Shown: piece by piece, positions 7,576 through 57,595 of the stretch
How the letters are laid out: each line of letters begins with the position of its first letter
How positions within the stretch are numbered: the first letter of the stretch is position 1
NCBI GenBank assembly: GCA_000824845.1
Contig: CCNC01000094.1
Coordinates: 124,001-188,000, forward strand
Direction: 5' to 3'
From: Mesorhizobium sp. ORS 3359
Lineage (GTDB): Bacteria > Pseudomonadota > Alphaproteobacteria > Rhizobiales > Rhizobiaceae
Length of the DNA stretch: 64,000 bases
Program-made: the position numbers and the translations under genes
The notes under the pieces: generated by a model
What the model was told of the DNA's origin: nothing
The model's database searches: none
What the model saw: the letters and a program-made list of their open reading frames with translations, nothing else

Positions 7576-7594
7576 ATTGGCAGTCCATCCATTC

Positions 7595-7628
7595 GTTCAA
7601 GCATGAACATAATAGTTCAAACATGAAC
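7595..7628. promoter_or_regulatory. Tandem operator for the adjacent MarR regulator
   Basis: Two near-identical palindromes, GTTCAAGCATGAAC (7595-7608) and GTTCAAACATGAAC (7615-7628), share GTTCA-N4-TGAAC and lie exactly 20 bases apart, about two helical turns. The right-hand copy covers the ATG of the regulator gene at 7623, and the left copy lies 20 bases upstream of the hydrolase start. MarR dimers typically bind such palindromes between divergent genes and repress both. The identity of the site is seen; that this MarR binds it is inferred. Confidence 0.75.
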
Positions 7629-8075: not shown

Positions 8076-8087
8076 GCGGGCTTCCAG

Positions 8088-24776: not shown

Positions 24777-24790
24777 CGTCATCCGCGGCG

Positions 24791-25786
24791 TTATAGCCGG
24801 ACAGCCATCGCCATGCCCGAGCTGGTCAGCGCCGCCGCTTTGACGATGCCGGCAGCGAGAGCAGCCCCTACCCCTTCGCCGTGGCTGATGCCGAAATCGA
24901 GCAGCGGCCGCAGTCCGAGCCTTTCGGCGGCCTTGGCATGGCCAGGCTCGGGCGACAGACCGGCAAGCAGACAATGATCGAGCGTGCCGGGGCTGGCCGC
25001 GTGAAGAACAGCGGCCGCGGCAGTCGCCACGAATCCGTCGAGCAAAACAGGAATCTTCTCCATGCGGGCCGCAAGAATAGCGCCGCAGATCGCCGCGAAC
25101 TCGCGGCCGCCGACCCGTCGCAGGGCCTCCAGCGGATCGCCGAGGCCGGAACCATGAAACGCCAGCGCCCGGTCCACGACCTCGGCTTTTCGCGCCATCA
25201 TCGCCGCATCGGCGCCAGACCCTGGGCCAACCCAATCCGTCCCCTTGCCGCCGAACAGCGCGGCGCAGAGCGCGGCGGCGATCGTCGAATTGCCAACCCC
25301 GAGATCACCTAGGCACAACAGGTCGGCGCCGCCGGCGACCGCCTCCATGCCGAAGGCCATGGTCGCGGCACAACCGCGTTCGTCGAGCGCTGCCTCCTCG
25401 GTGATGTCGCCTGTGGGGATATCCAATGCCAAGTCGAAGACTTTCAGGCCGAGATCGTTGGCGATGCAGACCTGGTTGATCGCGGCCCCACCGGCTGCGC
25501 AGAGCTCGACCTCATTGGCGGTCGCCGCCACACGCCGCGGCGAAATGCCGTGCCGCACCGCGCCGTGATTGCCGGCGAAGATCGCCACCAGCGGCCGGTT
25601 GATCGCCGGCGGCGCCCGCCCGCTCCAGGCGGCAATCCAGGCCGCGACGTCCTCGATCCTGCCCAGCGATTCGTTCGGCTTGTCCGCCTTGGCAAACAGC
25701 GCACGGACACGCCCGGCCGCCGCGTCATCGGCAGGGGGCAGCCCCGTCAGGAGGTTTCGGAAATCATCGAAAGGCTTAGCAGGCAT
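24791..25786 (-). CDS. cobT: Nicotinate-nucleotide--dimethylbenzimidazole phosphoribosyltransferase CobT
   Basis: 331 residues. CobT forms alpha-ribazole phosphate for the lower ligand of cobalamin. Recognisable motifs: FAGNHGAVRHGISPRR, LGDLGVGNSTIAAALCAAL and the C-terminal GISHGEGVGAALAAG, whose glutamate is the catalytic base of the family. Length is normal. The start ATG at 25786 gives the usual N-terminus with PFDDFRNLL. No cobS or other cobalamin gene neighbours it here, and I saw no cobalamin riboswitch in the upstream bases (no GCCACTG box). Confidence 0.95.
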   Translation of the reverse strand: MPAKPFDDFRNLLTGLPPADDAAAGRVRALFAKADKPNESLGRIEDVAAWIAAWSGRAPPAINRPLVAIFAGNHGAVRHGISPRRVAATANEVELCAAGGAAINQVCIANDLGLKVFDLALDIPTGDITEEAALDERGCAATMAFGMEAVAGGADLLCLGDLGVGNSTIAAALCAALFGGKGTDWVGPGSGADAAMMARKAEVVDRALAFHGSGLGDPLEALRRVGGREFAAICGAILAARMEKIPVLLDGFVATAAAAVLHAASPGTLDHCLLAGLSPEPGHAKAAERLGLRPLLDFGISHGEGVGAALAAGIVKAAALTSSGMAMAVRL

Positions 25787-25951
25787 TTGCGTCGATCGCG
25801 GTCCGTTGCGGAAATCGCAAGCGGCATAGCCGCCTTCTGCAGCCGGCACAACCGCCTCACGATGCCGCGAACGCGTTGCCTTGCGGCGTATTGCGGAGGG
25901 CTTGCATTGCTCCGGCGGTTGCACCATGTGGAATGAACGCAAGAGAACACT

Positions 25952-26182
25952 ATGACCGCCATCGAATCCCCCTGCATCCTGGTCTGTTCGATCGATATGA
26001 AAACCGGGTTCTGCTTCGGTTGCGGACGCACGCGCGACGAGATTTCCGGCTGGCTCACGATGACTCCAGACGTTCGCCGGGCGGTGATGGCCGAACTGCC
26101 GGCGCGGCTCGAAACGGTGGAGCGCCGGCCGCGCCGCGAAACAAGGCGAACCCGCATGGCGCGCGAACGCGGCGTTCAGTGA
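25952..26182 (+). CDS. DUF1289 protein
   Basis: 76 residues. The motif [29 protein letters not shown] contains the cysteine set (C-x3-C then C-x2-C) that defines DUF1289, probably a metal-binding knuckle. The C-terminus is arginine-rich. The function is unknown. It is divergent from cobT and lies 10 bases before the aspartic protease gene, so it is probably co-transcribed with it. Confidence 0.88.
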
Positions 26183-40661: not shown

Positions 40662-41687
40662 TTATTCCGCATGTCGGTTGATATTTGTGACTCTGCGTAG
40701 CTTTCGCATTGCCCGGCCGAACTGGTATCTCATGATGTTGCCGCAGATTCGCATTTCGTGCTTGACTCCTTTAGCCGGAGCAAAACGTTGCTTGTAGTCG
40801 TGGCCCCCACCCAAGTCGATACCCCGCAGATTGAATCTACCGACCATCTCGAATGTCAGATACATTAAATATGTACCTATATCGAAGCGATCGTATTCAT
40901 GATCTCTGAAATATACTTGGGCAACTAGTTCATTTTCATGTATCAGGCAAGTCGCGCCGCCGACTCGACGATCACCGTCGCTGAGCAGGATGGACACAAG
41001 ACGGCCGGTGGCCTCCATGTACTCCGCAGCCGCGACACGGTCCGCTATCTCCGCGCCGTCGATCCCCCAGGTCTTACCCCACTCTTTGACAATCAATCTC
41101 GCCGCGCCCGGCTGATTGATCCCAACGGAGAAGCCACTGCATTTTCTGCGAGACTTTCGTATTGCGTCCCATCGACCAGTCTTTCGCCAGTACGCTTCAA
41201 AGTCGTCCGTGGCATCCATTCCGAAGGTTGGTTCAGACCACAGCGCGCGCACCGCGCCGTGGCTTTGCGGTTCCTTTTCCGGGCGCCAGAAGCCAAGCTC
41301 GACAGTAACGCCTACGCTTGCCACGGCATCCAGAAGCCGGCCGGGTTGCGACGGCAAGACAAATCCGGGAACTATGTAACGGGTTACGGGCACCCAACAT
41401 CCATCAGGCGTCCGGCGCAAGGCCACTATTGCGACAGGCGCGTCCCGCTCACGCACAAGCGCGATGAGCTTTCTATTGTCGATCGAACTTGTGGCCAGTA
41501 TCCGGAACAGCTCATGCGGGCACGCGTCGGATTCAGGCAGCCGCGACAATGCATCATCCAATTGCGAATTCCATTGCCTGAACAAGGTGACGTGAGGGCG
41601 GGACCGTTGGGCGCGCGCCGGCTGGTTCTCCTCAACGACCGGCTGGATTGGTCCGGTCCCTATCGCTTCGGATTGCGCCTGCCTCAT
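40662..41687 (-). CDS. BioF2/CelD-type GNAT acyltransferase in polysaccharide locus
   Basis: 341 residues. The C-terminal part (SRRKCSGFSVGINQPGAARLIVKEWGKTW, VGGATCLIHENELVAQVYFRDHEYDRFDIGTYLMYLTFEMVGRFNLRGIDLGGGHDYKQRFAPAKG) has the two-GNAT-fold pattern of the BioF2-like Acetyltransf_6 family, common in exopolysaccharide operons (CelD/BcsL type). It probably adds an acyl group to the polysaccharide or to its lipid carrier. The N-terminal ~170 residues resemble the first, non-catalytic GNAT fold. The start has GGAG upstream. Confidence 0.75.
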   Translation of the reverse strand: MRQAQSEAIGTGPIQPVVEENQPARAQRSRPHVTLFRQWNSQLDDALSRLPESDACPHELFRILATSSIDNRKLIALVRERDAPVAIVALRRTPDGCWVPVTRYIVPGFVLPSQPGRLLDAVASVGVTVELGFWRPEKEPQSHGAVRALWSEPTFGMDATDDFEAYWRKTGRWDAIRKSRRKCSGFSVGINQPGAARLIVKEWGKTWGIDGAEIADRVAAAEYMEATGRLVSILLSDGDRRVGGATCLIHENELVAQVYFRDHEYDRFDIGTYLMYLTFEMVGRFNLRGIDLGGGHDYKQRFAPAKGVKHEMRICGNIMRYQFGRAMRKLRRVTNINRHAE

Positions 41688-44522: not shown

Positions 44523-44654
44523 ATGAGCGTCCAAGCTGGGGGGGCCTGGCTGGACTCTCAGATTGGTAGAAACTTCCAAAAAATCCAGGACTTGAGGGGG
44601 CTGTCGGCCGCCATGAGGCGGTCGTGTTGGGCAAAAGTTGGGGTGCTAGTATGA
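44523..44654 (+). CDS. 43-residue leader-type ORF overlapping the LuxR start
   Basis: The frame starts MSVQAGGAWLDSQIGRNFQK and continues IQDLRGLSAAMRRSCWAKVG, ending in a TGA that overlaps the LuxR start (ATG 44651-44653, TGA 44652-44654). A near-ideal ribosome site, AGGGGAGAAGCG, is placed just before the ATG. This layout predicts translational coupling, with the small protein or its translation controlling the regulator. It was not visible in length-limited gene calls. I do not recognise its sequence. Confidence 0.65.
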   Translation: MSVQAGGAWLDSQIGRNFQKIQDLRGLSAAMRRSCWAKVGVLV

Positions 44655-45406
44655 GTTCTGCAATCGGACTGCATAATCTTGCTTCGACAAATCAACCAGA
44701 AATCTCGTCGAGCAGCGCAAAGAGCAACGATCAACTAGACAAGGAATGCCTACTTATTCTTGACGGAAGGGCGCTAGACCGGGAATGTCTAGCATCGGCT
44801 CTGGAGGACCATGAGCTTGGCATGGCTGTTGCCGCCATGGGCAGGATCGAAGAATGGCGAATAAAGAAGGAAGCATACCCTCCTCTAGCCGCCATCCTAT
44901 TTAACCTCGGTGGGCGCAAAGTTACCGATCAAAGCATAGCTGAAGAGGTCCGGATGATCTCTTCAGAGTTCAGTTCTGTTCCAGTGATTCTGCTGGCCGA
45001 CACGGAAGATCTCACACAGATACTGACCGCCCTTGAAAGCGGCGCGCGCGGATACATTCCGACTTCTGTTGGCATTGACGTCTGTGTCGAAGCCGTCAAC
45101 CTTGCGGCGGCTGGCGGCATCTTCGTACCGGCCAGTAGCGTGCTGTCCATGCGGCATCTGATCGATTCAGGCAGCCGCGACACACGTCCGCTGACGACTA
45201 TGTTCACGCACCGGCAAGCTGAAGTGGCTCAGGCGCTTCGGCGCGGCAAGGCGAACAAGATCATAGCCTACGAACTGAACCTGCGCGAAAGCACCGTGAA
45301 AGTTCACATCCGCAATATCATGAAGAAACTGAAGGCGACCAACAGGACTGAGGTTGCCTACAAGGTCAACGACCTTTTCGGGGAAGGTGCTCTCGCGGAA
45401 GAATGA
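44651..45406 (+). CDS. LuxR/NarL-family regulator with non-canonical receiver domain
   Basis: 251 residues. The C-terminal LuxR helix-turn-helix is TMFTHRQAEVAQALRRGKANKIIAYELNLRESTVKVHIRNIMKKL. The N-terminal half has the receiver fold (ECLLILDGRALDRECLASAL; VPVILLADTEDLTQILTALESGARGYIPTS), but the phosphoacceptor position reads AILFNLGG (N in place of D) and the conserved lysine after GARGY is absent. It is therefore probably phosphorylation-independent. Its place suggests control of the exopolysaccharide locus. The start ATG at 44651 overlaps the small ORF; a terminator follows. Confidence 0.85.
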   Translation: MSSAIGLHNLASTNQPEISSSSAKSNDQLDKECLLILDGRALDRECLASALEDHELGMAVAAMGRIEEWRIKKEAYPPLAAILFNLGGRKVTDQSIAEEVRMISSEFSSVPVILLADTEDLTQILTALESGARGYIPTSVGIDVCVEAVNLAAAGGIFVPASSVLSMRHLIDSGSRDTRPLTTMFTHRQAEVAQALRRGKANKIIAYELNLRESTVKVHIRNIMKKLKATNRTEVAYKVNDLFGEGALAEE

Positions 45407-45628: not shown

Positions 45629-46987
45629 ATGTCTGAGCAGAGCCCTTGTTTTCGCAAATCTCTTCGTTTGCAAGGTCGCGCGCGCCAACTGATCCCAGGT
45701 GGCTGCCATACATACGCGAAGGGCGACGATCAGTATCCCATTCTCGCCCCGGGTTTCATTGAGCGTGGACTTGGATGTCATGTCTGGGACGTCGATGGCA
45801 ACGAATATATCGAATATGGCATGGGCAATCGTTCCGTTGGATTGGGGCATGCCTACCCGACCGTCCTGAGGGCGGTTGAGGCAGCGTTGAGTGGCGGTTC
45901 CAATTTCACGCGACCGGCTAGGATCGAAGTCGACTGCGCCGAGACGTTTCTGGAGCTTGTCGACGCGCAGATGGTAAAGTTCTGCAAGGATGGCTCGGAT
46001 GCGACGTCCGGCGCCGTGCGCCTGGCCCGCGCTTATACAGGGCGCGACCTCGTGGCCTGCTGCGCCGACCATCCATTCTTTTCGACGGACGATTGGTTCA
46101 TCGGCACGACACCGATGAATGCCGGTATTCCGGAGGTGGTCCGAAATCTCACCGTCACCTTCCGATACAACAACATCGCCAGCGTAAAGGATCTTTTCGA
46201 CAGATATCCGGGCAAGCTGGCCGCGCTGATCCTCGAGCCATCCCGCGGAGACGACCCGGCAGACGGTTTCCTGCATGAAGTGCAACGTCTCTGCAGGGAA
46301 AACGGCGCGCTGCTCATTCTCGACGAGATGATAACCGGATTCCGATGGCACGCGGCTGGAGCTCAGAAACTCTATGGCATTGAGCCGGACCTGACGACGT
46401 TCGGCAAAGCGCTCGGCAATGGCTTTTCAGTGTCCGCCTTGGCGGGCAAGCGCGAATATATGCGGCTTGGCGGGTTAGAGCATATGGACCGCCCAAGGGT
46501 ATTCCTGTTGTCAACCACGCATGGCGCGGAGACCCATGCGCTCGCCGCGGCCATCGCGACCATGCGAACATACCAATCCGAACCTGTTATAGAGCACCTG
46601 CACCTCCAAGGCACAAAGCTCAAGGACGGTATCACCGAGGCTGCCAAACGCCACGGCGTGGAAGACCACTTCAGGGTCGTCGGCCGCCCCTCTTGCCTGG
46701 CATTCGCCACGCTCGACGCCAACGGCAAGCCGTCGCAGGCATATCGCTCGCTTTTCCTTCAAGAGACAATCAAGCGCGGAGTGCTGATGCCGTCACTGGT
46801 CGTCAGCTATACTCACGACAACCCGGCGATCATGAAGACCATTGAGGCGGTCGACGGCGCATTGGCGGTGTATGCCCAGGCCCTGGAAGCGGGGACGGAC
46901 CGGTTTTTGGTCGGCCGGCCATCCCAGGTTGTCTTCCGTCGATTCAACGAAGGGGCCGAAGTACGGGTTTCCGCCGCGGCCAGCTAA
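45629..46987 (+). CDS. Class III aminotransferase, glutamate-1-semialdehyde aminomutase-like
   Basis: 452 residues of fold type I PLP enzyme. Signals: GCHVWDVDGNEYIEYGMGNRSVGLGHAYP (start of family domain), FCKDGSDATSGAVRLARAYTGRD (PLP-phosphate site), ILDEMITGFRW and TFGKALGNGFSVSALAG with the Schiff-base lysine. The closest family is HemL-like 2,1-aminomutases/aminotransferases seen in polysaccharide loci, not heme synthesis, as it stands among sugar genes. It may add an amino group to a keto sugar or make an amino-acid precursor. ATG at 45629 has GGAG upstream. Confidence 0.85.
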   Translation: MSEQSPCFRKSLRLQGRARQLIPGGCHTYAKGDDQYPILAPGFIERGLGCHVWDVDGNEYIEYGMGNRSVGLGHAYPTVLRAVEAALSGGSNFTRPARIEVDCAETFLELVDAQMVKFCKDGSDATSGAVRLARAYTGRDLVACCADHPFFSTDDWFIGTTPMNAGIPEVVRNLTVTFRYNNIASVKDLFDRYPGKLAALILEPSRGDDPADGFLHEVQRLCRENGALLILDEMITGFRWHAAGAQKLYGIEPDLTTFGKALGNGFSVSALAGKREYMRLGGLEHMDRPRVFLLSTTHGAETHALAAAIATMRTYQSEPVIEHLHLQGTKLKDGITEAAKRHGVEDHFRVVGRPSCLAFATLDANGKPSQAYRSLFLQETIKRGVLMPSLVVSYTHDNPAIMKTIEAVDGALAVYAQALEAGTDRFLVGRPSQVVFRRFNEGAEVRVSAAAS

Positions 46988-47029
46988 CCGAGCGGCGTGC
47001 ACCTCCGCCGCTGCGCGGGTCCCGCTCGG
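46988..47029. other. Stem-loop after aminotransferase gene
   Basis: CCGAGCGG (46988-46995) and CCGCTCGG (47022-47029) are 8-base inverted repeats around a GC-rich loop that can fold again internally. It starts directly after the stop of the aminotransferase, in the 78-base gap to the convergent PIG-L gene. No T-run follows on either side, so termination is uncertain. Confidence 0.4.
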
Positions 47030-47065
47030 GGCGGAAGTCCCTTCGGCGATGGGCATTGTCGACTG

Positions 47066-47719
47066 TTAGAAAATCCTGGCTTTTCTGACCGTGAACGCCT
47101 CGGCGAAACGCTCGGGCGCTCTGCATTCCATTCCGCGCAATCTGGCAAGCCCAACAAAAGTGTCACGGTCGAACCAGTCCTTGGAGCGCTGCGTCCCGAA
47201 GTACTTATGGAGTAACTGGACCTTGCGTTCCAGTACGTCGGCCGCAAGCGGAACATATGCATTCGGCCGGCCGAGGTCGCCATCCCACTTCGGGATCTCG
47301 TATTCGAGCACCAGATGGTCGCGAAAGACATTCCAGGTCAATTGATTGACTTCCCGATGGTCCTGGTGGGCATCGAGCTTGGCATGCGTGAGCACTATGT
47401 CGGGATTGATGCGCGACCTCACATCGATCAACCAGTGTTTTATCGATCGGCTATGGATTGGGAAGTAGCTGTCCTCAAAATCCGCGATCTCGACTTTGGA
47501 CGAGCTCGACCCCTCAAGGAAGGCCTCGGCCGATGCCTTGGCTTCGGCCGAACGGGGGCCGCCGCCGCTCAACACGCACCAATGGACGTGGAGCTTCACT
47601 CCTGAAGCGATCAAGCTGAGAATTGTGCCGCCGGCGCCTATTTCAATGTCGTCGGAATGGGCTCCAAGGCAGAGGAGCGAGAGTTCCTCCCCTCGGCGAG
47701 CGAGGCCAAGCCCCTTCAT
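47066..47719 (-). CDS. PIG-L family deacetylase
   Basis: 217 residues. The zinc-binding start motif is SLLCLGAHSDDIEIGAGGTIL (normally AHPDD, here AHSDD), and later DIVLTHAKLDAHQDHREVN gives the H-x-D-H-x-x-V/T-N pattern. PIG-L enzymes remove N-acetyl groups from amino sugars or similar. In this locus the substrate could be a nucleotide-linked amino sugar or carrier-linked sugar. It overlaps the RfbF gene by four bases (47716-47719), so the two are translated together. Confidence 0.88.
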   Translation of the reverse strand: MKGLGLARRGEELSLLCLGAHSDDIEIGAGGTILSLIASGVKLHVHWCVLSGGGPRSAEAKASAEAFLEGSSSSKVEIADFEDSYFPIHSRSIKHWLIDVRSRINPDIVLTHAKLDAHQDHREVNQLTWNVFRDHLVLEYEIPKWDGDLGRPNAYVPLAADVLERKVQLLHKYFGTQRSKDWFDRDTFVGLARLRGMECRAPERFAEAFTVRKARIF

Positions 47720-48531
47720 GAGGCAGCCATCACCATGCTACGCTTGATCTTCTCGGCGGTGACCTTGCGATTCCAGGGCATATCGCCTTTTTCGACCATG
47801 TCCTCGAGCGACTGCCAGTCGCGCAGCGTATCCATCGAGCGCCAGAAGCCTTCGTGCTTGTAGGCCATCAGCATGTTGTCGTCGATCAATCGTTTGAACG
47901 GTTCGAGGACGAGCTCCTCGCCGTCGCGCATGTAGTCGAAGATTTCCGGCCGGAAGACAAAGTACCCACCGTTGATCCATATCTCGGATGTATCCGTCGT
48001 GCGGAACTCGCGCACACGGCCATCTTCAGCGATGTCGGCCAGATGGTATGTCAGCGGCGCGCGCACGGCGAGGAAGCAGCCGATCTTGCCGCTGGCCTCG
48101 AACTTCGCAATCACGTCGTCGAGGTCGACATTGGTCAGGCCGTCGGAGTAGTTGGCCAGGAACATCTTCTCGTTCCTGACATGATCCCTGGCGGCCCAGA
48201 GTCGCTCTCCAATGTTGCGCCAGATACCCGTGTCGAGCAGCGTAATGCTCCAGTCCTTTGGAGTATCGCCGAGCAGCTTCACATCCCGACCGCCTTGCGT
48301 GACGACGCAGTCAGAGAAGGTCTGCGGCCTGGTGTTCAAGAAGAAATCCTTGATGACGTTGGCCTTATAGCCCAGGCAAAGGATGAACTCGTCATGCCCG
48401 TATTCGCTGTACCACTGCATCACGTGGCGCAGGATCGGCTGGTGGCCCAGAGGAATCATCGGCTTCGGTATGCTGTCGGAATAGTCACGTATGCGCGTGC
48501 CGCGCCCGCCGCAGAATAGGACGACTTTCAT
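47716..48531 (-). CDS. rfbF: Glucose-1-phosphate cytidylyltransferase
   Basis: 271 residues. The start MKVVLFCGGRGTRIRDYSDSIPKPMIPLG is the nucleotidyltransferase signature of RfbF-type enzymes, and GRDVKLLGDTPKDWSITLLDTG and FLANYSDGLTNVDLDDVI are CDP-glucose pyrophosphorylase regions. It makes CDP-glucose, the entry to 3,6-dideoxy and C-methyl-branched sugars. A CDP-glucose 4,6-dehydratase is not found near, so the next step is unclear. It overlaps both neighbours by four bases. Confidence 0.92.
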   Translation of the reverse strand: MKVVLFCGGRGTRIRDYSDSIPKPMIPLGHQPILRHVMQWYSEYGHDEFILCLGYKANVIKDFFLNTRPQTFSDCVVTQGGRDVKLLGDTPKDWSITLLDTGIWRNIGERLWAARDHVRNEKMFLANYSDGLTNVDLDDVIAKFEASGKIGCFLAVRAPLTYHLADIAEDGRVREFRTTDTSEIWINGGYFVFRPEIFDYMRDGEELVLEPFKRLIDDNMLMAYKHEGFWRSMDTLRDWQSLEDMVEKGDMPWNRKVTAEKIKRSMVMAAS

Positions 48532-49823
48532 CTCGGCAACTCCGATGGATCAATCACTGTAACGAAAGGAATCGGCACCACGAATTTCGCGCCCCAGCTG
48601 GCGATGTGATGCATCTGCTTGATGATCTCGTCCTTCAAGTTCCATGGAAGGATCAGGACGTAGTCCGGCTTGGCATGGTCGATCGCCTCGATCGGCTTGA
48701 TCGGTATGTGCATGCCGGGCGTGAAACGACCGTGCTTGTAGGGGTTCCGGTCGACCGTGAAGTCGAGAAAATCGGGGCCGATTGCGCAATAGTTAAGCAA
48801 CGTGTTGCCTTTGCCCGGCGCGCCATAGCCGCAAATCTTCTTGCCCTCGTTCTTGGCCGAGATCAGGAAGGCGAGGAGATCTCGCTTCGCTCGCTGCGCC
48901 TTGTCGCCGAAGGAGGCGTAGGTCCCCATGTCGGTCAGCCCATGCCGCTTTTCGCGATCGAGCAGAAGTTGAACGCGGTCGTTCACGGGCCAGCTGCTTT
49001 CCTCGTTCGCGAGATAGATGCGAAGCGAACCGCCATGAGTAGGCAGTTCCTCGACGTCGATCAGCCGCAGCCCGTGGCGGGTAGCCATAAGGTCGATGGT
49101 CAATAACGAGAAGTATGAGAAATGCTCGTGATAGATGGTATCAAACTGGTTCTCGGCCATCAGTCGCTCAATATGCGGAAACTCGATGGTGATGACGCCT
49201 TCCGGCTTGAGGAGGACCTTCATTCCTGCGACGAAGTCATTCAGGTCGGGCACTTGGGCCAGAACATTGTTGCCGATGATAAGGTCCGCGCGCAGGCCCT
49301 CGGCCACCATCTGGAGAGCCAAGCGAACCCCGAAGAAATCAACCCTGGTCGGCACACCCTTCTCAAGCGCGGCGCTCGCAACGTTTGCGGCAGGCTCGAC
49401 ACCTAGAACGGGAACGCCAAGCGGAAGAAAGTGCTGGAGCAGGTAGCCGTCGTTGCTGGCGAGCTCGACCGCGAGGCTGTCGGAACCAAGGCCGAGGCGT
49501 TTCGTAATGGCCTCGCAATAGGCTTTCGCGTGGGCCACCCAGCTTGTCGAAAAAGAAGAAAAATAAGCATACTCGCTGAAGATGGTTTCGGGACTCATGT
49601 ATTCCTTGAGCTGCACGAGATAGCAGGTGTCGCAAACCAGGACGTTCAGCGGATAGTACAGTTCCACCTGATCCAGCTGGTCGGCCCGCAGGAAGTTTTC
49701 GCAAGGCGGCGACATGCCGAGATCGACCAGCGTATGCCGCAGACGCGTACCACAAAGCCTGCAGCCGACGCCGCGGCGTATCGGGTTTTGGTCGCGGACG
49801 ACTTCGACGGCTTGTATGTTCAT
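48528..49823 (-). CDS. NDP-sugar C-methyltransferase (SAM-dependent)
   Basis: 431 residues. The N-terminal zinc-binding segment is CRLCGTRLRHTLVDLGMSPPCENFL and CDTCYLVQL. The SAM-binding domain is LGSDSLAVELASNDGYLLQHFL, and a C-terminal Rossmann-like domain has KKICGYGAPGKGNTLLNYC and PDYVLILPWNLKDEI. This architecture is that of TylC3/NovU-like sugar C-methyltransferases, which methylate C3 of 4-keto sugars. It is the first gene of a three-gene coupled operon (methyltransferase, RfbF, PIG-L). The start has AAGGAG upstream. Confidence 0.9.
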   Translation of the reverse strand: MNIQAVEVVRDQNPIRRGVGCRLCGTRLRHTLVDLGMSPPCENFLRADQLDQVELYYPLNVLVCDTCYLVQLKEYMSPETIFSEYAYFSSFSTSWVAHAKAYCEAITKRLGLGSDSLAVELASNDGYLLQHFLPLGVPVLGVEPAANVASAALEKGVPTRVDFFGVRLALQMVAEGLRADLIIGNNVLAQVPDLNDFVAGMKVLLKPEGVITIEFPHIERLMAENQFDTIYHEHFSYFSLLTIDLMATRHGLRLIDVEELPTHGGSLRIYLANEESSWPVNDRVQLLLDREKRHGLTDMGTYASFGDKAQRAKRDLLAFLISAKNEGKKICGYGAPGKGNTLLNYCAIGPDFLDFTVDRNPYKHGRFTPGMHIPIKPIEAIDHAKPDYVLILPWNLKDEIIKQMHHIASWGAKFVVPIPFVTVIDPSELPR

Positions 49824-50149
49824 TGGCTGCTCCTTGTCCGCCTGCCTGGAAAAAAAATGGAGACGCGGTGGCCTGACGAAGTACCTGCTGCCGTCGCGCC
49901 TCCGTGGAATGTACGCAAGCCTAAGGCGACGCGCCTTCGAGTCCGATTTGCCAATGCGTCGGCTGCCTTAATCCTTAAAGGGCAAGGGGGTGAGGCAGTG
50001 ACCCCATCAGGCAAGCCGAACGAGTAGGATTGACCATCCGGCATACCGCTATCGATGAAGCCACCTAAGGCTTTGGGAGCTCTTCCAGCCGGTACTCGCG
50101 ACGCCAAGAATTCCCTCGGTTTTTGCCCGCGAAAGGGGCTTGAAGCGAC
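49824..50149. other. Divergent promoter region
   Basis: These 326 bases separate the methyltransferase operon (minus) from the RfbC gene (plus). A GCC-rich part and a run of G (GGGCAAGGGGG near 49980) are visible. I do not see a convincing operator or short gene. Both promoters must lie here. Confidence 0.45.
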
Positions 50150-50701
50150 ATGCAGTTTGCCGAGACCGAATTGAAAGGCGTGTGGCTGATCGAGCCGACA
50201 CCCGTGGTCGACGATCGCGGCTCCTTTACGCGCCTTTTCTGCGAGAAGGAAATGGCCGATTGCGGGTTGGCGACGCGCTTTGTCCAGCACAGCCGGGCAC
50301 ATTCGGTCAAAAAAGGAACGCTGCGGGGGTTACATTTTCAGGAGAACCCCTATGCCGAGGTGAAACTCGTCTCCTGCGTCCGTGGCGCGATCTTCGACGT
50401 CGTGGTTGACATGCGCCCGAACTCGCCGACGCGCTACAAGTGGTTGGGCTTCGAACTGACGGCCGCAAACATGAGGCAGGTCTATATTCCCACCGGATTC
50501 GCGCATGGACTGCAGACACTTACAGACGATACCGAGGTTTCTTACCTGATATCGCAGTTCTACACGCCACAGTCAGCGACGGGCGTCCGCTTCAACGATC
50601 CCGCCTTTTCAATAAACTGGCCCTTGATGCCGACCGCGATGTCGGAAAGGGACAGGACATGGCCGCTGGTCAAGCAGCGGGCCCCAATCGAGGCCTTATA
50701 G
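50150..50701 (+). CDS. rfbC: dTDP-4-dehydrorhamnose 3,5-epimerase family protein
   Basis: 183 residues, cupin fold. Motifs: GVWLIEPTPVVDDRGSFTRLFCEKE, SVKKGTLRGLHFQENPYAEVKLVSCVRGAIFDVVVDMR (catalytic H in LRGLHFQ) and RQVYIPTGFAHGLQTLTDDTEVSYLISQFY. In classical pathways it epimerises C3/C5 of 4-keto-6-deoxyglucose. Here it stands with a CDP-sugar enzyme and a C-methyltransferase, so the substrate may be a CDP-4-keto-hexose. It ends overlapping the convergent DUF4910 gene by six bases. Confidence 0.9.
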   Translation: MQFAETELKGVWLIEPTPVVDDRGSFTRLFCEKEMADCGLATRFVQHSRAHSVKKGTLRGLHFQENPYAEVKLVSCVRGAIFDVVVDMRPNSPTRYKWLGFELTAANMRQVYIPTGFAHGLQTLTDDTEVSYLISQFYTPQSATGVRFNDPAFSINWPLMPTAMSERDRTWPLVKQRAPIEAL

Positions 50702-52015
50702 GGTCGCAGCCAAGAGCCCATGCTCCGACAGCATCCTGGCAGCGGCTGCCAGCTCCTTGAACGGCAGTCCGGAGCGCTCGGCCATCGACAAGATCGAGTG
50801 CTGTCCATCGGCCAGATTGAGCACCCATAGCAGAGACATCGAAGTTATGCCGGACGCCTTCTGCCCTCCCAAGGCGCTGTAGAGGCCCCGCCTGCCGAGT
50901 TGCGGCTCGCCCTTGGGGAAGAGATTCAAGGGCGTCCAGTCCCCTTCGACCAAGTCAATTAGATCCATGAGAACCGCCAAGGAATCCTCAAGGTACTCCG
51001 GCGCGATGAAGCCGAGATTGTCGGCCGACGTATGGTACTCGGGGAAGGTGCCGTGGACGCTCCGCTGGAACATGCCGACGGGAAGATTGAAGCCCGGCGA
51101 GCAATATTGCCTTTCGTCGTAGCCATAGGGGGAGAAATCGATCAGCTTCGCCCCGGGCCGATCGCCGAGCAGGTGCGCCATAGCCCGGTCAATGAAGGCG
51201 TCGCCGCGACGGCTGCGCTTGTATGCCGGGCATCCAGCATCACCCACGCAAGACACTACCAGCCCATGATCGATGAGTTGTATGCGGTTCTCATTGCGGG
51301 ACAGCCATGTGAGCGCGCCGATCGTTCCTGGAGCAAAGAGGAAGCGGTAGCTATACTTTGTCTTCCGGGTGCTGAGGGTCCTCGCCAGCGTCGTCAGGAG
51401 AGCGAGGCCCGAACAGTTATCATTGGCCAGTGACGGATGGCATATATGGGCTGAAAGAAGGAATTCCCGCTCGGTCTGTCCGCGGTGCAGGTATTCTCCG
51501 TAGGTCAAGCTGCCGTCCTTGAGCTCAGCATCAATCTCTACCTGGTAGAGACCGTCGGTCATCTCCAGCAAACGATCATGCGCCATGCAGAACCCCCATG
51601 TCGGGGCGTAGTAGCTGGTGCGGTAGGGAATCACGTCCGGCTGTTCAGGCAAGGTATGGATATGCTGCCTCAACTCATTGAGCGGCAAGGTACCTTTGAA
51701 AGGTACGCTGTAGTTGACTACGTGGAGGGTGGAATCGGCAAAGTCCACGATCGTCCGACCGTCGGGCGCGACGATCCTGGCCGACCGGATGTTCCATTCT
51801 TGCGGAATCGTCCAATCGAATACCTGCGTGCCGGTGGGAACCTCATGCCGCCGCAAGTCAATGTGCCCGGACAAAACGTCCAAGGTCTTCCGCACGCCAT
51901 CGCCGGTGATGCTTCGGCAAATCGGAAATAGCCGTTCGGCCAGGTCATAGATCTCCTGGCCGACTCCGGCGGCCGGCGGCGCCGAGCCGAGCCAAGCTGG
52001 ACCCACATACGTCAT
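50696..52015 (-). CDS. DUF4910 aminopeptidase-like protein
   Basis: 439 residues. It has an N-terminal DUF2172-type insertion (VRKTLDVLSGHIDLRRHEVPTGTQVFDWTIPQEWNI), an M28-like core (LLSAHICHPSLANDNCSGLALLTTLA, PEYHTSADNLGF) and a C-terminal winged-helix part. The metal ligands H...D and the late H-T-S-x-D agree with zinc aminopeptidases, but the usual glutamate region reads PGTIGAL, so activity is uncertain. Members of this family often occur in polysaccharide loci with sugar enzymes. It follows the SDR gene by 5 bases on the same strand. Confidence 0.82.
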   Translation of the reverse strand: MTYVGPAWLGSAPPAAGVGQEIYDLAERLFPICRSITGDGVRKTLDVLSGHIDLRRHEVPTGTQVFDWTIPQEWNIRSARIVAPDGRTIVDFADSTLHVVNYSVPFKGTLPLNELRQHIHTLPEQPDVIPYRTSYYAPTWGFCMAHDRLLEMTDGLYQVEIDAELKDGSLTYGEYLHRGQTEREFLLSAHICHPSLANDNCSGLALLTTLARTLSTRKTKYSYRFLFAPGTIGALTWLSRNENRIQLIDHGLVVSCVGDAGCPAYKRSRRGDAFIDRAMAHLLGDRPGAKLIDFSPYGYDERQYCSPGFNLPVGMFQRSVHGTFPEYHTSADNLGFIAPEYLEDSLAVLMDLIDLVEGDWTPLNLFPKGEPQLGRRGLYSALGGQKASGITSMSLLWVLNLADGQHSILSMAERSGLPFKELAAAARMLSEHGLLAATL

Positions 52016-52020
52016 TTGGA

Positions 52021-53082
52021 TTAGCCCGCCGCAGCCTCCAAGGCTATTGAGGCCTCCACGGCACGCATGCGCTCGTCCAGAAGTCCGTTCGCCAACAGAT
52101 ATCTTATGTGGCCGATGCGCTGGAAGCGAGGACCCTCGAATTCCTCCAAGGTGACATTCGATTGCCGATAGGCCCGGTAAAGCTGTTCGGCGCCTTTGCG
52201 GGCGTCCCATTGCGGCCGGAAGCTCGGAAGAGCGCGCGCAATCTTCTCGAAGCTTACCCGATAGGAACGTTTGTCGGGGCCGGCATCGGCCGCGAACTCC
52301 AGGCGGCAGCCAGGCACCACATCGGCGACGATCTCGGCTATGTCGCGGATCCTGTAATTGTGGGCCGTCTGCCCCACATTGAAAGCCTCGTTGTGGATCA
52401 CATCCCGCGGGGCTTCGAGGCCGGCGATGAAAGCGCGGGAAATATCCTCGATGTGAACGATGGGCCGCCACGGGGTCCCATCGGATTTGAGCAGGATCAC
52501 GCCTTTGGTCACCGCCCAGGCAACGAGATTGTTCAGCACGATGTCGAAGCGAAGCCGGCGCGACAAGCCATAGGCCGTAGCAGGCCGGAAGTAGGTCGGA
52601 GAGAAGCTGCCGTCGGCGAGTTCGGAAATATCGCGTTCGGAAAGTACCTTGGACCAGCCATAGGGCGTGACCGGATTGAGCTCTCCGGTTTCGTCCACCA
52701 TGTCATCGCCCGCCTGTCCGTAATTGCTGCAGGACGAAGCGAAGAGAAAGCGTGACACGCCGGCTTCCTTGGCCGCTTTCGCGAAGCGAACGCTGCCCTT
52801 GTGGTTAATCTCGTATGTGATCTCCGGATCGAGATCGGAGAGCGGGTCATTCGAGAGGGCTGCCAGGTGTATTACGGCGTCGAAACCTTCGAGATCGCGA
52901 GGCTGCACGTCCCGGACGTCCTTTTGAATGGATGGAACGGATGCTCGCTCCCCTCCCGCCGCAAAGGTGCAGCGCCGGTAAAGGTCGCTGTCGTAGCCGG
53001 TCACCGCATGCCCCGCGCGAAGCAGCATCGGCACCATCACCGACCCGATATAGCCTTGATGGCCGGTTACCATGACTTTCAT
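52021..53082 (-). CDS. NAD-dependent epimerase/dehydratase (SDR) for nucleotide sugar
   Basis: 353 residues. Rossmann start [20 protein letters not shown] (GxxGxxG), [24 protein letters not shown] and the catalytic YGWSKVLSE (Y-x3-K) are all present. The C-terminus lacks family-specific features. It may reduce or epimerise a 4-keto nucleotide sugar made by earlier steps. It is upstream of the DUF4910 gene with 5 bases between, so the two form one operon. The start at 53082 is chosen by family alignment. Confidence 0.88.
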
Positions 53083-53319: not shown

Positions 53320-54750
53320 TTAGCCAGGCGCGGGCATGTCCGACGCATCGCGCATCACGGCGTGCCGCGATTTGAACTCACTAGAGCCGACGATGCCCAA
53401 GGCAATGGAATCGCGCGTCATTGATCCTCTGCGCAACTGTCGGGAATAGGTTTCCATCCCGTAGCCGTCCGCTGGGCGATCCAACAACAGCATGTAAAGA
53501 AACCCGATATAGGCGCGGTCCGTCAGGCCTATAGTGGCATATTTGGCCTCGAATTCTTCAGAGCGAATCAACTCCATGACCACGTCGGTAAGCCGAGCGT
53601 CTCCGTTCTCGAGCGCTGCCGACAAGCGATCCAATCCTGCGGTGTCGCCGTCACGGCCGAGGACGAGACAATAGGCAAAACTTGCCTGGTGGACATAGGT
53701 GAACCCATCGGCAAACGTCGCCTCGGGGTTGCACCCCCGCTGCGGCTTGGGCAACGGTTGCGGGCCGCGCGTGATGTCGCGGACAGCCTTATAGGCGGGT
53801 TTCGGTTCGCCGGTCATCCATTTGCCGTTGTTATTCGCGACGAGTCTAACCAGACCCATATTGGCTTCGAAGCTCGGGGCCCAGTAAGTCTCATCCAGCA
53901 ACTCATAGATATGCGCTGCCTCCAGCTTGTACTTCTCCTGGAGTTCGCGGAGCCGTGTCATCGTCTGTTTGACGCCGTCAGCCTGCTGCCGCTCGCTCCG
54001 CTGACTTCCGTAGGGATTATTGAATTCGGTAACCCAAATCGGCTTGCCGTAGGAAGAAATCTCGCGGAAAGCCCATTCGGGGTCTTCCCCGTACATGTGC
54101 CAGACAGAGATGTCCCAGGCGATCCCATCCTGCTTCATCCGCGCGAAGGCGCCGGTATGGCCCCAGCCAGCCGTGCCCATGGCTTTTTTTATGCTCGGAT
54201 CAACGGCCGTCATGCCATCGGACAGCCCCTTAAGGACTGCGCTTACCTTCACCCAGCGCGGACCGTAGTAGTCGAGCACTCCAGTTCCACCTGCCGGCCC
54301 CCAGCTGCATGGATATTGCGATCCATCTTCACGCTGCTCGCAGGGCTTGATGATGGCGTAGACCTCCATCTCGTTGCCCAGTTCCCAAACGCGGATGTCG
54401 TTCTTGAACCTGGTGCCGAGCGCAACCGCCAGTTTCCGGGCCTCAACATAAAGTTGGTCCGGTTTCTCCTTGTCCAAGTCCATCCCGGGTGTGATCACTG
54501 GGAGGATTTCGATCCCTCTCCTTTTCCCGGCTTCGACGACTTGGGCCAAAGTATCTGCCTCGTCTTCGGCCGTGATGTTGACCCTATATGATTTGAGACC
54601 GAGATCCTTGATGAAATCGAGTTGTTTTTCGATTGGAACACCCGGGTAGGAAGCCACCGGATGGCCGTTCACCCCCCAGAGCAAATCAGCAGATGCGGGC
54701 GCGGCTGTTGCCAGCAGCAAAGCAGCCGCGGCTGAGAAACGAAACGACAT
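53320..54750 (-). CDS. Secreted glycoside hydrolase (clan A-like) with two DUF4214 repeats
   Basis: 476 residues. Signal peptide MSFRFSAAAALLLATAAPASA comes first. The catalytic domain (~25-345) has RVWELGNEMEVYAI (acid/base E) and KPIWVTEFNNPYG (nucleophile E), the two glutamates of clan GH-A. The C-terminal part has two DUF4214 units (SFAYCLVLGRDGDTAGLDRL; YIGFLYMLLLDRPADGYGMETY), usually found in polysaccharide-associated proteins. It may trim or release exopolysaccharide outside the cell. ATG at 54750 is chosen over 54759 because GGGAGG lies 10 bases upstream. Confidence 0.85.
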   Translation of the reverse strand: MSFRFSAAAALLLATAAPASADLLWGVNGHPVASYPGVPIEKQLDFIKDLGLKSYRVNITAEDEADTLAQVVEAGKRRGIEILPVITPGMDLDKEKPDQLYVEARKLAVALGTRFKNDIRVWELGNEMEVYAIIKPCEQREDGSQYPCSWGPAGGTGVLDYYGPRWVKVSAVLKGLSDGMTAVDPSIKKAMGTAGWGHTGAFARMKQDGIAWDISVWHMYGEDPEWAFREISSYGKPIWVTEFNNPYGSQRSERQQADGVKQTMTRLRELQEKYKLEAAHIYELLDETYWAPSFEANMGLVRLVANNNGKWMTGEPKPAYKAVRDITRGPQPLPKPQRGCNPEATFADGFTYVHQASFAYCLVLGRDGDTAGLDRLSAALENGDARLTDVVMELIRSEEFEAKYATIGLTDRAYIGFLYMLLLDRPADGYGMETYSRQLRRGSMTRDSIALGIVGSSEFKSRHAVMRDASDMPAPG

Positions 54751-55007
54751 GGCAATCATGCCTCCCTGCACGACTTTCAATATCGGGATAGTCGGAACTG
54801 CAGGAGTCGGAAGCAATTTGCCCATACGGGTATGAGAGGCCGCGCTTTACCTCTTTTGGAGGCTGTAGCCTAGCCATCAGGCGGCATGACTATTTGATTG
54901 CGCTTCTCGAGTCAGCACTCGGATGATTGGCGGTGACTGCCGCGGATGAATAGAATTGATATTCGCTTCGTGCGACAACCACCGGGCCGGCTACACCTTC
55001 TGAGCCT

Positions 55008-56276
55008 TTATCCGTAGACTTCCCCAAAATCCGCGTCGACCTGGATCATGAGCTCAAGATACTTCCATGCAATCCAGCGCCAGGAATAGCTGCTCGCCCT
55101 GGTATGGCCCTTGCTAACCATTCGCTTGCGCAAAGCCGGGTCGAGCGCCAGCTTCCCAACGTTTTCCGCCCACGATTGGACATCGTCCGGATCTGCATAG
55201 AGGGCAGAATCGCCACAGACTTCGGGCAGACACGGCGAAGTCGAGGCGACGACCGGACATCCCGACGCCATCGCCTCCACCGCGGGCAACCCAAAACCTT
55301 CGATCCGGGATGGAAACAGGAAGCAAACCGCGCCCTCAAGCGCTTTTTTGAAGTCGTGATCGCCTATGCGCCCGAGAAGGACGATGTTCCCCGGCAATTC
55401 GGGGACGTGCCGCAAGATCGTTTCCTCGTCGACATCGCCTGGCATCCAGAGGTCGAGTCCCATCTCATCGAGACGAGGGGCAAGCTTAGCCAAAAGTCCC
55501 ATGTTCTTGTATTCTTGATCACCTCGGCCAAGGCAAACGACATATGGCCTGTCTCGATTGACGACGAGGGACGATCTGGTCGCATCCCACTTTTTCGCAT
55601 GGTCGCTGCCATTGTAGGTAACGACGATGTTTTTCTCAGGTGCAATCCCAAACCTGACCAGATGACTCCGCGAGAGTTGCGAAACCGTGGTGATCCGTGC
55701 GGCTCGCCTGCCAACCAGCGGAAGGATCAGGCGGTGCGCCCAACGGAATCCCCGCGCATAGCTCGACGGCATCAGCCTCGTGTGCATGTCATGGATGCAT
55801 GCGATCTGACGCCTCATCACGACTGGCGCAAGGTTGCAAAAGCTGAGCAATCCGCCAGGCACATGCCAAGGCAGTTGCGCTTGCACCCAGAACTGCGGAA
55901 GTCGCGGCCTATTGAACTCGGGAACGACCCGGACTGTTATGGCTTTCAGAGGAAGAGGTTCGACAAGCGGGCGCGGCACCACGAGATCGATTTCCAGATC
56001 ACGGCCAAGCGGATGCCCTTCCGAAATGAGGGCGTCGAGAGCCGTCGTCACCTCCAGTCCGTAACGCGCTACCCCGTTGCGCCGAAGCGTGGTGAAGTCG
56101 CCATTTATCGTCCAACGTCGTCTTGGCGGCTCGAAGTCCGCCGATGTCCTGCCGGGATGGCCAATCAGGTATTGCGAGCTTTCTGGAAGCGACTGGGCAA
56201 CCAGTGCGGCAGTGCTGTGGCCGTTCAAATGCCTGGACCGCCCGGCCGGCGCCGCATTGAACTCAGAATTGCCCAT
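55008..56276 (-). CDS. Glycosyltransferase family 4
   Basis: 422 residues. The N-terminal GT-B domain opens RRRWTINGDFTTLRRNGVARYGLEV, and the C-terminal part has PYVVCLGRGDQEYKNMGLLAKLAP and CFLFPSRIEGFGLPAVEAMASGCPVVASTSPCLPEVCGDSALY. It is paralogous to the next gene and head-to-head with it. ATG at 56276 is preferred because GGAGAAGGCG lies directly upstream. It adds a sugar of unknown type to the repeat unit. Confidence 0.87.
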   Translation of the reverse strand: MGNSEFNAAPAGRSRHLNGHSTAALVAQSLPESSQYLIGHPGRTSADFEPPRRRWTINGDFTTLRRNGVARYGLEVTTALDALISEGHPLGRDLEIDLVVPRPLVEPLPLKAITVRVVPEFNRPRLPQFWVQAQLPWHVPGGLLSFCNLAPVVMRRQIACIHDMHTRLMPSSYARGFRWAHRLILPLVGRRAARITTVSQLSRSHLVRFGIAPEKNIVVTYNGSDHAKKWDATRSSLVVNRDRPYVVCLGRGDQEYKNMGLLAKLAPRLDEMGLDLWMPGDVDEETILRHVPELPGNIVLLGRIGDHDFKKALEGAVCFLFPSRIEGFGLPAVEAMASGCPVVASTSPCLPEVCGDSALYADPDDVQSWAENVGKLALDPALRKRMVSKGHTRASSYSWRWIAWKYLELMIQVDADFGEVYG

Positions 56277-56464
56277 CGCCTTCTCCGCCTTGCCGACGAG
56301 CAGCCACCCTAACACTCCAGGAGACACAACGGCCCTCAAACGTTTGAGGTAGTTCCAGCGTCTGCCCTCGCCTGGCTGGATGATCCTCCGCGCCTGCGAA
56401 TGACCCAACGGCCGTAGTGACCGCACGCGCCGGCGGTCTCAAACTAGGACATCGAGAGGGTGAC

Positions 56465-57595
56465 ATGGCACGGCGCTGGACTATCAACGGACGTTTCCTT
56501 TCCCAATCGACAACTGGCGTCCAGCGTTATGCAAGGGAGATCGTCCGTTCACTGGACGATTTAATCGCCGAGCGTGCGCCACTTACCCGTGGACTCGAGA
56601 TCAGGCTCCACTGTCCGCCGGGCAGCTCGGACGTCCTGCTCAATTCCATCGAACGTTGCGAAATTGGCAGCACAGGTGGGCATCTGTGGGAGCAGACCCA
56701 ACTAGCAACCTCGTTGCACGGGGGCGGGCTGCTCAGTCTGTGCAATACCGGACCGCTTCTGTCTCGCAAGCATATTGTCTGCATTCATGATGCAAATGTG
56801 TGGAATGCTCCACAGAGCTATTCACTTGCATTCAGGGCCTCTTACAAAACGCTGCTGCCATGCCTTGGCAAGACAGCATGCAACATCTCGACTGTTTCCA
56901 ATTTTTCGCTGGGCGAATTGGTTCGCCGGGACATTGTCCCGGCGCAAAGGGCCTTTGTTGCCCCGAACGGCCACGAACACGTCTTGCAGTGGAAGCCCGA
57001 ACACTCGGCAGCGACGCGGCTGGCGGCCTCGCGGGATACCATCGTCTTGATCGGCAGCGCCGCGCCACACAAAAATGTGGACCTCATTCTGGGCATGTCC
57101 GACCGCCTTGGCAATGCCGGATTTAGGATCGCGGTTGTCGGCATGCCGGGTTCGCACATTTTCAAAACGGGATCAGCCAGGGCTGAAGCTGGAAACATTC
57201 ATTGGCTCGGTCGCATTTCCGATAGCGAGCTGGCTGCGCTGCTGACCGACTCGCTCTGCCTGGCCTTTCCTTCGCTGACCGAAGGCTTTGGTCTTCCGGT
57301 TGTCGAGGCGATGGCGCTCGGCTGTCCGGTTGTGGTGTCGGAACGTGCCAGCCTGCCGGAGGTCTGCGGAAATGCAGCTCTTTATGCCGCTGCCGACAAC
57401 CCACTGGCATGGCTCGACCGCTTCACGGGGCTGCGCAACTCCAAAGCGCTGCGCCTGCGGTTGGCAGCAAAGGGAAAAGCCAGAGCCGAGGCATATAGCT
57501 GGAGAGCGAGCGCGATGCGCTACCTGCAGGCGATGGCCGCTGCCGACGGCATCGATACAGAGACCAAGGTCGTCAGGCTGCACGAGCTCACATGA
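56465..57595 (+). CDS. Glycosyltransferase family 4
   Basis: 376 residues. The start ARRWTINGRFLSQSTTGVQRYAREI and the C-terminal FPSLTEGFGLPVVEAMALGCPVVVSERASLPEVCGNAALY match the preceding gene closely, so the two are an inverted duplicate pair with different acceptor or donor use. ATG at 56465 is supported by AGAGGGTG upstream. It ends convergent with, and overlapping by 8 bases, the GT4 gene on the other strand. Confidence 0.87.
   Translation: MARRWTINGRFLSQSTTGVQRYAREIVRSLDDLIAERAPLTRGLEIRLHCPPGSSDVLLNSIERCEIGSTGGHLWEQTQLATSLHGGGLLSLCNTGPLLSRKHIVCIHDANVWNAPQSYSLAFRASYKTLLPCLGKTACNISTVSNFSLGELVRRDIVPAQRAFVAPNGHEHVLQWKPEHSAATRLAASRDTIVLIGSAAPHKNVDLILGMSDRLGNAGFRIAVVGMPGSHIFKTGSARAEAGNIHWLGRISDSELAALLTDSLCLAFPSLTEGFGLPVVEAMALGCPVVVSERASLPEVCGNAALYAAADNPLAWLDRFTGLRNSKALRLRLAAKGKARAEAYSWRASAMRYLQAMAAADGIDTETKVVRLHELT

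Follow-up and report, generated by a model that had tools for sequence, protein, structure and literature searches.

The orphan 'deoxysugar' cluster SCO0381-0401 of Streptomyces coelicolor comprises 21 genes that possibly form a single operon, and four of its five detected proteins are reduced when bldA is mutated (PMC2000904). In the S. lividans copy of the cluster, genes are affected by mutation of adpA (PMC4021200), and the S. coelicolor cluster is raised in later mycelium (PMC3610822). The open-access literature on this cluster, cited here and below from the passages available, consists of expression studies and names no product. We analysed a stretch of 64,000 nucleotides from Mesorhizobium sp. 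ORS 3359 (assembly GCA_000824845.1, contig CCNC01000094.1, positions 124,001 to 188,000 of the forward strand; the window), in which seven enzyme genes at 45629-53082 bring together the same seven families. These genes constitute a conserved sugar-nucleotide cassette, and we put at about one half the probability that it makes a C3-methyl-branched sugar for a surface polysaccharide through an ordered scheme that includes a C4-oxidising short-chain dehydrogenase/reductase (SDR). To judge from the pyruvyl transferase genes nearby, this polysaccharide would be pyruvylated. The seven genes, with the profile or structure matches that place them, are the following.

45629-46987, plus strand: HemL-like class-III pyridoxal phosphate (PLP) enzyme of the NF004856 / PRK06209 type (NF004856, 786.4 bits, cut-off 486)
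47066-47719, minus strand: PIG-L / LmbE family deacetylase (PF02585, 64.4 bits)
47716-48531, minus strand: RfbF-like nucleotidyltransferase of a separate subfamily without the Glu-Lys-Pro (EKP) motif (TIGR02623, 205.7 bits, under the cut-off of 300.25)
48528-49823, minus strand: sugar C3-methyltransferase (CMT) of the TylC3/TcaB9 type (Methyltransf_13/23/14; 4rv9, 280 bits)
50150-50701, plus strand: RfbC, an RmlC-type NDP-4-keto-sugar 3,5-epimerase (TIGR01221, 170.3 bits, cut-off 155.75)
50696-52015, minus strand: DUF4910-DUF2172-HTH_47 protein, single-zinc metallopeptidase-like (PF16254, 369.6 bits; PF09940, 126.4 bits; PF16221, 97.8 bits)
52021-53082, minus strand: extended SDR, a predicted Cj1427-like NDP-sugar C4-dehydrogenase (6vo6, 112.7 bits)

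All seven reading frames announced by the original prediction are present, and the translational coupling that it described is real: the PIG-L and RfbF-like genes, as well as the RfbF-like and CMT genes, overlap by 4 bases, and 5 bases (52016-52020) separate SDR from DUF4910. Five of the genes share the minus strand and HemL and RfbC occupy the plus strand; RfbC converges with DUF4910, the gene ends overlapping by 6 bases (50696-50701). The Pfam and NCBIfam families match the names given earlier, except that the RfbF-like protein falls below the curated cut-off and the SDR reaches no NCBIfam cut-off. The setting was also recognised correctly, as the cassette lies inside a polysaccharide locus that also encodes glycosyltransferases, a pyruvyl transferase, a sugar-lipid transferase and flippase-like, export and Wzc-like proteins.

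The proposal that the seven families form one set was borne out by the genomic neighbourhoods of DUF4910 homologues. Eighty loci (named here with L numbers, genomes with G and contigs with C numbers) were fetched by alignment of the DUF4910 protein as the best 80 of at least 587 relatives; many come from Streptomyces, so they are not independent. A partner was counted when a tblastn match covered 75% or more of the window protein; the best homologue was accepted wherever it lay in the locus, which makes a few of them remote, and genes more than 10 kb away or past a contig end are missed (11 of the 80 loci are shorter than 18 kb). All six partners accompany DUF4910 in 53 of the 80 loci, the individual counts being 76 for RfbF-like, 76 for CMT, 72 for SDR, 71 for RfbC, 69 for PIG-L and 56 for HemL. 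With phyla assigned from record titles, the full set was found in 14 of the 18 loci from alphaproteobacteria, 38 of the 45 from actinomycetes and 1 of the 10 from cyanobacteria, and in 0 of 7 others. The enzymes look like members of one pathway; the same families recur together in distant phyla, and chance co-location of the genes was rejected on their co-occurrence in the 80 loci.

Within the genus, DUF4910 occurs in 5 of 36 other genomes, all five with SDR-DUF4910-RfbC-CMT-RfbF-PIG-L together; HemL stands beside the set in three of them, lies on another contig in G290 and was undetected in G311 (NF004856, E<=1e-100). A single same-strand run, SDR-CMT-RfbF-PIG-L-RfbC-oxygenase-HemL-DUF4910, is present in Nostoc carneum (L089), and annotated plasmids carry copies of the set in Mesorhizobium ciceri (no HemL in the stretch examined), Agrobacterium pusense and Streptomyces sp. 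KN37. The megaplasmid pNGR234b of Sinorhizobium fredii NGR234 encodes a DUF4910 copy 78% identical to that of the window (NC_012586.1, 1331872-1333182). Tight gene runs were seen among the 80 loci, with SDR directly upstream of DUF4910 in 62 of the 72 loci having both. The seven proteins have correlated pairwise distances (Spearman 0.66-0.90 for 45 actinomycete loci and 0.21-0.75 for 22 alphaproteobacterial loci, where RfbC is the loosest member), which would fit joint inheritance, most strongly in actinomycetes, shared host ancestry alone giving some correlation. The smallest unit seen is RfbF2-PIG-L-SDR-RfbC.

Additional genes accompany some of these loci. A 2-oxoglutarate-Fe(II) oxygenase-like protein, with a weak match, below the cut-off, to TIGR04324 (sporadic carbohydrate cluster), is encoded within or beside the cassette in nine loci (L089, at 7520-8422; L139, L120, L116, L149, L117, L104, L093 and L196), only two of which, L089 and L093, have HemL. 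A homoserine-dehydrogenase-like oxidoreductase adjoins the CMT-less RfbF2-PIG-L-SDR-RfbC loci L197 (6369-7850) and L198 (6374-7774) and is also found in L124 (7135-8415).

The Streptomyces form of the cassette resembles SCO0381-0401 in a comparison of gene order and annotation. The annotated Streptomyces locus L151 reads asparagine synthase, bi-domain oxidoreductase, four genes, methyltransferase, cytidylyltransferase, PIG-L, SDR, DUF4910, three genes, RfbC and HemL. The published table for SCO0386-0401 gives asparagine synthetase, bi-domain oxidoreductase, four genes, methyltransferase, transferase, hypothetical protein, epimerase/dehydratase, putative peptidase, hypothetical protein, glycosyl transferase, membrane protein, epimerase and glutamate-1-semialdehyde aminomutase; one name differs, SCO0399 being listed as a possible membrane protein (PMC3610822) and its counterpart in L151 as a pyruvyl transferase. 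The window keeps the CMT-RfbF-PIG-L and SDR-DUF4910 blocks of the Streptomyces type, but the order of the blocks and the strand of HemL and RfbC differ, and no asparagine synthase or bi-domain oxidoreductase was found among the window genes examined. A rhizobial polysaccharide locus is thereby tied to the long-unsolved S. coelicolor 'deoxysugar' cluster, with a testable reaction scheme for both. In L151, which is located on a Streptomyces plasmid, a class III lanthipeptide synthetase and a SapB/AmfS-like peptide gene follow the cassette cluster (23377-26082).

One of the two most interesting patterns found here concerns the nucleotidyltransferase, for which the original prediction that an RfbF makes CDP-glucose was not supported. 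Its TIGR02623 (glucose-1-phosphate cytidylyltransferase) score lies below the cut-off for a canonical RfbF, and the protein belongs to a motif-changed subfamily, so the 'RfbF' of the window is a relative rather than a confirmed equivalog. Aligned with the solved S. typhi enzyme 1tzf, it keeps GGxGTR, PKPM and INGG, and TTD replaces EKP, the residues that hold the sugar phosphate at the sugar-1-phosphate site of RmlA-type enzymes. With the canonical RfbF-RfbG pathway to CDP-6-deoxyhexoses the window set thus shares the nucleotidyltransferase family and its GGxGTR and PKPM motifs, but it has no EKP and no RfbG above the cut-off, and its nucleotidyltransferase is coupled to PIG-L. Fetched homologues at least 40% identical to the window protein lack EKP, whereas canonical ones, at most 39% identical, keep the EK motif (with EKA and EKS as exceptions to EKP); one canonical protein, of G109, has EKP at 41% identity, and the limit of about 40% is thus approximate.

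When the 80 loci were classified by a text search for EKP, EKA or EKS, all 69 loci with a motif-less nucleotidyltransferase contained PIG-L (69/69), none of the 7 motif-bearing loci did (0/7), and 4 loci had neither gene. A profile hidden Markov model likewise did not find the cassette PIG-L in the 7 EKP-type loci, and PIG-L proteins are listed elsewhere in the genome for 5 of these 7. Across 289 genomes of the class, the motif-less nucleotidyltransferase (at least 50% identity) was found in 6, which are also the 6 with this PIG-L, and bit scores below the motif-less group fall from 286 to 199. The two genes adjoin each other in 5 of the 6; G247 has them on separate contigs. With the window's genome omitted and kinship ignored, two sets of 5 genomes among 288 would coincide by chance with a probability of 6e-11. 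DUF4910 is present in 3 of these 6 genomes and in 22 of the whole 289 (P = 0.04 once the window's genome is excluded). The motif-less nucleotidyltransferase occurs only with PIG-L, which gives a sharp sequence rule. The PIG-L protein itself, whose profile has BshB (6p2t) as its best solved relative, retains the His and two Asp of AHxDD and the D, H, D and H of DxHxDH, presumed metal residues, in 81 of 81 homologues; this and the other residue counts refer to homologues in the fetched loci and in congeners, with distant members added for DUF4910.

The other of these two patterns is that an SDR predicted to be of the C4-oxidase type stands where a dehydratase would be expected. Cj1427 of Campylobacter is a sugar C4-dehydrogenase whose tightly held NADH is turned over by alpha-ketoglutarate, yielding L-2-hydroxyglutarate, after which a C3/C5 epimerase works on the 4-ketone (PMC10680097). 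The closest solved relative of the window SDR in a phmmer search was 6vo6 (the runner-up had 79.2 bits), a profile search gave a Cj1427 structure at 168 bits as the sole match at E<=1e-30, and structures 6vo8 and 6vo6, both titled Cj1427, took ranks 1-6 in a Foldseek fold search with the predicted model (pLDDT, a per-residue confidence score, of 87.8). The SDR was also considered as a 4,6-dehydratase and rejected: 4,6-dehydratases carry a T-D-E motif, at the position of which 81 of 81 SDR homologues have S-C-S, with YxxxK kept, and the dehydratase models score far under their cut-offs (TIGR02622, 32.7 against 278.45 bits). The Cj1427/Cj1430/Cj1428 heptose route resembles the cassette in combining a C4-dehydrogenase-type SDR with a C3/C5 epimerase on a non-6-deoxy sugar nucleotide; it differs in using GDP-heptose and a dedicated C4 reductase, and the passages available describe no C-methylation and no PIG-L, DUF4910 or HemL step (PMC10680097). 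A homologue of L-2-hydroxyglutarate oxidase lies between RfbF and SDR in three of the seven EKP-type loci, L120, L125 and L138, at 618.7, 318.3 and 252.4 bits, respectively (cut-off 299, the last one being below it), and was not found in the other four.

The remaining enzymes were placed with varying precision. The closest solved relative of the CMT is the D-mycarose 3-C-methyltransferase 4rv9, with a full-length domain match, and the expected three-domain architecture is present; YHEH is found in 85 of 85 homologues, the first two zinc cysteines in 84 and the second two in all 85. The original assignment as a TylC3-like C3-methyltransferase is consistent with this catalytic motif. The same full-length match and YHEH link the window CMT to TylC3, TcaB9 and MycMT, which act on dTDP-4-keto-6-deoxy sugars in antibiotic pathways. 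CDP-vinelose of Azotobacter was considered as a precedent for a CDP-linked C-methyl sugar, one that a search of the open-access literature did not confirm; another C-methyl sugar is virenose of Coxiella, for which the published model uses GDP or dTDP (PMC3539893). In RfbC, the catalytic residues His62 and Lys72 are kept in 81 of 81 homologues and Tyr138 of the window is His in 43 of 81, His, Lys and Tyr being the residues with catalytic roles in RmlC. The PLP lysine K260 of the HemL-like protein is conserved in 63 of 63 homologues of the fetched loci, and its best solved relatives are glutamate-1-semialdehyde aminomutases. It is probably not the haem enzyme, because it fails the hemL equivalog TIGR00713 (221.9 against 527.3 bits) and passes the separate model NF004856 (PRK06209.1), which NCBI also names glutamate-1-semialdehyde 2,1-aminomutase. 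An Arg near the N-terminus of the solved 3k28 is replaced by Lys in the HemL-like protein, invariant in 11 rows.

The DUF4910 protein matches the structure of CA_C2195 (3k9t) with E 9.3e-140 over 414 residues and, like it, combines DUF4910, DUF2172 and HTH_47 domains with a His-Asp-His single metal site. The same three metal residues are conserved, H193 and H328 in 108 of 108 homologues and D199 in 95 of 108. An ordinary aminopeptidase can be dismissed: the catalytic Asp and Glu of M28 peptidases, replaced by Ser and Pro in CA_C2195 (PMC4000134), correspond to S195 and P229 in the window protein, and the Pro is present in 108 of 108 homologues. Das et al. (2014) described CA_C2195 as a three-domain protein with these metal residues, proposed a role in a modified surface sugar together with an epimerase, a nucleotidyltransferase and a methylase, as here, and suggested that it transacylates or deacylates an amino sugar (PMC4000134). 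The main text of that paper mentions no PIG-L, deacetylase or cytidylyltransferase, and the clostridial neighbourhood it shows contains a sialic-acid-synthase gene (PMC4000134). The presence of PIG-L and a PLP enzyme in the set lends weight to this candidate role. The claim that the cassette is undescribed holds insofar as no biochemistry of it was found in the open-access literature; the link between DUF4910 and sugar genes was published in 2014 (PMC4000134), and SCO0381-0401 has long been listed (PMC3610822, PMC2000904). Equally, as predicted, no joint chemistry of PIG-L and DUF4910 was found in the open-access literature. The cassette is real and conserved, a variant of sugar-nucleotide pathways partly anticipated in 2014, and its main interest lies in the two patterns described above, not in the combination of family names. 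It places DUF4910, a solved structure without a function, beside defined partner enzymes.

What is observed is which genes are present, which catalytic residues are conserved, how often the genes co-occur and to which family each enzyme belongs; from these we infer the substrate, the nucleotide, the order of the steps and every step given to PIG-L, HemL and DUF4910. The RfbF-like enzyme would activate a sugar-1-phosphate other than glucose-1-phosphate, probably with CTP, and its partner PIG-L would deacylate that sugar or its CDP-linked form, the group removed being most likely N-acetyl. The SDR would then oxidise C4 with a tightly held NAD, recycled as in Cj1427 by conversion of alpha-ketoglutarate to L-2-hydroxyglutarate, with O6 kept. 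RfbC may epimerise C3/C5 of the resulting 4-ketone, and the methyltransferase may put a methyl group on C3. At C4, reduction or, through the HemL-like PLP enzyme, amination could follow, and the DUF4910 protein, predicted to be a one-metal enzyme and no normal peptidase, could make or break an amide on the sugar. An 'amino' sugar is plausible given the PIG-L and the class-III PLP enzyme. Taken at its fullest, the scheme describes a new route to a branched non-6-deoxy sugar, in which the EKP-less nucleotidyltransferase activates an N-acylated sugar solely in partnership with the PIG-L deacylase, a Cj1427-type ping-pong dehydrogenase forms the 4-ketone with no dehydration, CMT and epimerase accept an O6-retaining 4-keto-hexose, and HemL and DUF4910 install or modify an amino group. 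We regard this full version as tentative, with odds of roughly one in three; if true, the orphan S. coelicolor 'deoxysugar' cluster makes no deoxysugar.

Several observations weigh against the predicted scheme with the C4-oxidising SDR. HemL was not found in 24 of the 80 loci nor in the congener genome G311, and the counts include a few partners that are remote or encoded on the opposite strand (RfbC of L104, L117 and L119; HemL of L106). Elsewhere in the class, closely related partners were seen in just two of 20 DUF4910 regions, L030 and L031 (the HemL of L042 is 31% identical); DUF4910 as a family does not imply the cassette. The oxidase link is limited to the three loci given above, all of the EKP type and not of the window's type, and L204, a further SDR of the EKP type that was the only match when 378 genomes of the phylum were searched with the EKP-type (variant-B) SDR profile, has no oxidase neighbour within its 4 kb locus. 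On the same side stands dTDP-glucose 4,6-dehydratase (RmlB), which passes its cut-off in all 15 genomes searched (the window's genome encodes it on a separate contig, C90), so that a dTDP-4-keto-6-deoxy sugar could be fed into the cassette. The product would then be a conventional 6-deoxy-3-C-methyl hexose whose synthesis starts from CDP-glucose or dTDP-glucose; the 4,6-dehydratase gene would lie in another part of the genome, and the SDR would act as the final 4-ketoreductase. We consider this somewhat unlikely. The CMT and RfbC families normally act on 4-keto-6-deoxy sugars and the CMT is closest to an enzyme of D-mycarose synthesis, but RmlB makes dTDP sugars, which would leave a cytidylyltransferase relative inside the operon unexplained, and the nearest solved relative of the SDR is a C4 oxidase. 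CDP-glucose 4,6-dehydratase (TIGR02622) was above the cut-off in none of the 8 genomes that carry all or part of the cassette, the window's own included, and in 1 of 12 further genomes (1/20 in total). The single case is the EKP-type locus L127, where a true CDP-glucose 4,6-dehydratase (493.2 bits) stands alongside CMT, RfbC and DUF4910, as a conventional route would have it, and no Cj1427-like SDR was found within the 15.9 kb examined. The two natural variations, the oxidase-bearing EKP-type loci and the dehydratase in place of the SDR in L127, fit the reading of the SDR as Cj1427-type. '6-Deoxy' and 'CDP-glucose' are unproven for the cassette; a C3-methylated, possibly amino, non-deoxy sugar is likelier, and we give it about twice the weight of the deoxy product.

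The placement of the SDR is itself open to a different interpretation. It shares only 28% identity with Cj1427, and in the fold search UDP-glucose 4-epimerases rank just behind, at a TM-score of about 0.7 (0.73-0.77 for the Cj1427 structures), so that GalE-like chemistry is possible for this enzyme; galE is also its top NCBIfam match, far below the cut-off (98.9 against 262.3 bits). If the SDR were an ordinary C4-epimerase, the nucleotidyltransferase-PIG-L pair could make a separate amino sugar, and the cassette would serve two sugars of one repeat unit. Loci L197 and L198, which consist of RfbF2-PIG-L-SDR-RfbC without CMT, DUF4910 and HemL and also count against a single scheme, would suit such a division, as would genome G128, in which the families are split over two contigs, with CMT-RfbF2-PIG-L at the end of C12 (L199) and DUF4910-RfbC-HemL on C20 (L031). 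The tight gene runs and the frequent position of SDR directly upstream of DUF4910 argue against it, and RfbC and CMT need a source of the 4-ketone, no other being seen among the cassette genes, which makes two separate sugars improbable. It is more improbable by far that unrelated enzymes merely share one polysaccharide locus: the opposite strand of HemL and RfbC in the window and the variability of HemL would be explained, but the set recurs in three phyla, with same-strand runs in Streptomyces and Nostoc, and the co-occurrence in the 80 loci already disfavours this explanation strongly.

Two accessory genes adjoin the cassette, both also found in the fetched stretches of some of the five congeners.

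44624-45406, plus strand: LuxR-type regulator with a GerE domain (in 3/5 congeners)
53320-54753, minus strand: secreted glycoside-hydrolase-like / DUF4214 protein, PF11790 and PF13946 (in 4/5 congeners)

Decoration of the sugar with an amino acid by a nearby Acetyltransf_6 (GNAT) protein (40662-41687) was considered and is not claimed; this protein has no homologue in the 80 loci (tblastn, 1e-10). Beyond the accessory genes, two group-1 glycosyltransferases (55008-56426, minus strand, and 56417-57595, plus strand) are arranged head to head with overlapping start regions; their N-terminal stretches are similar, and they look like paralogues.

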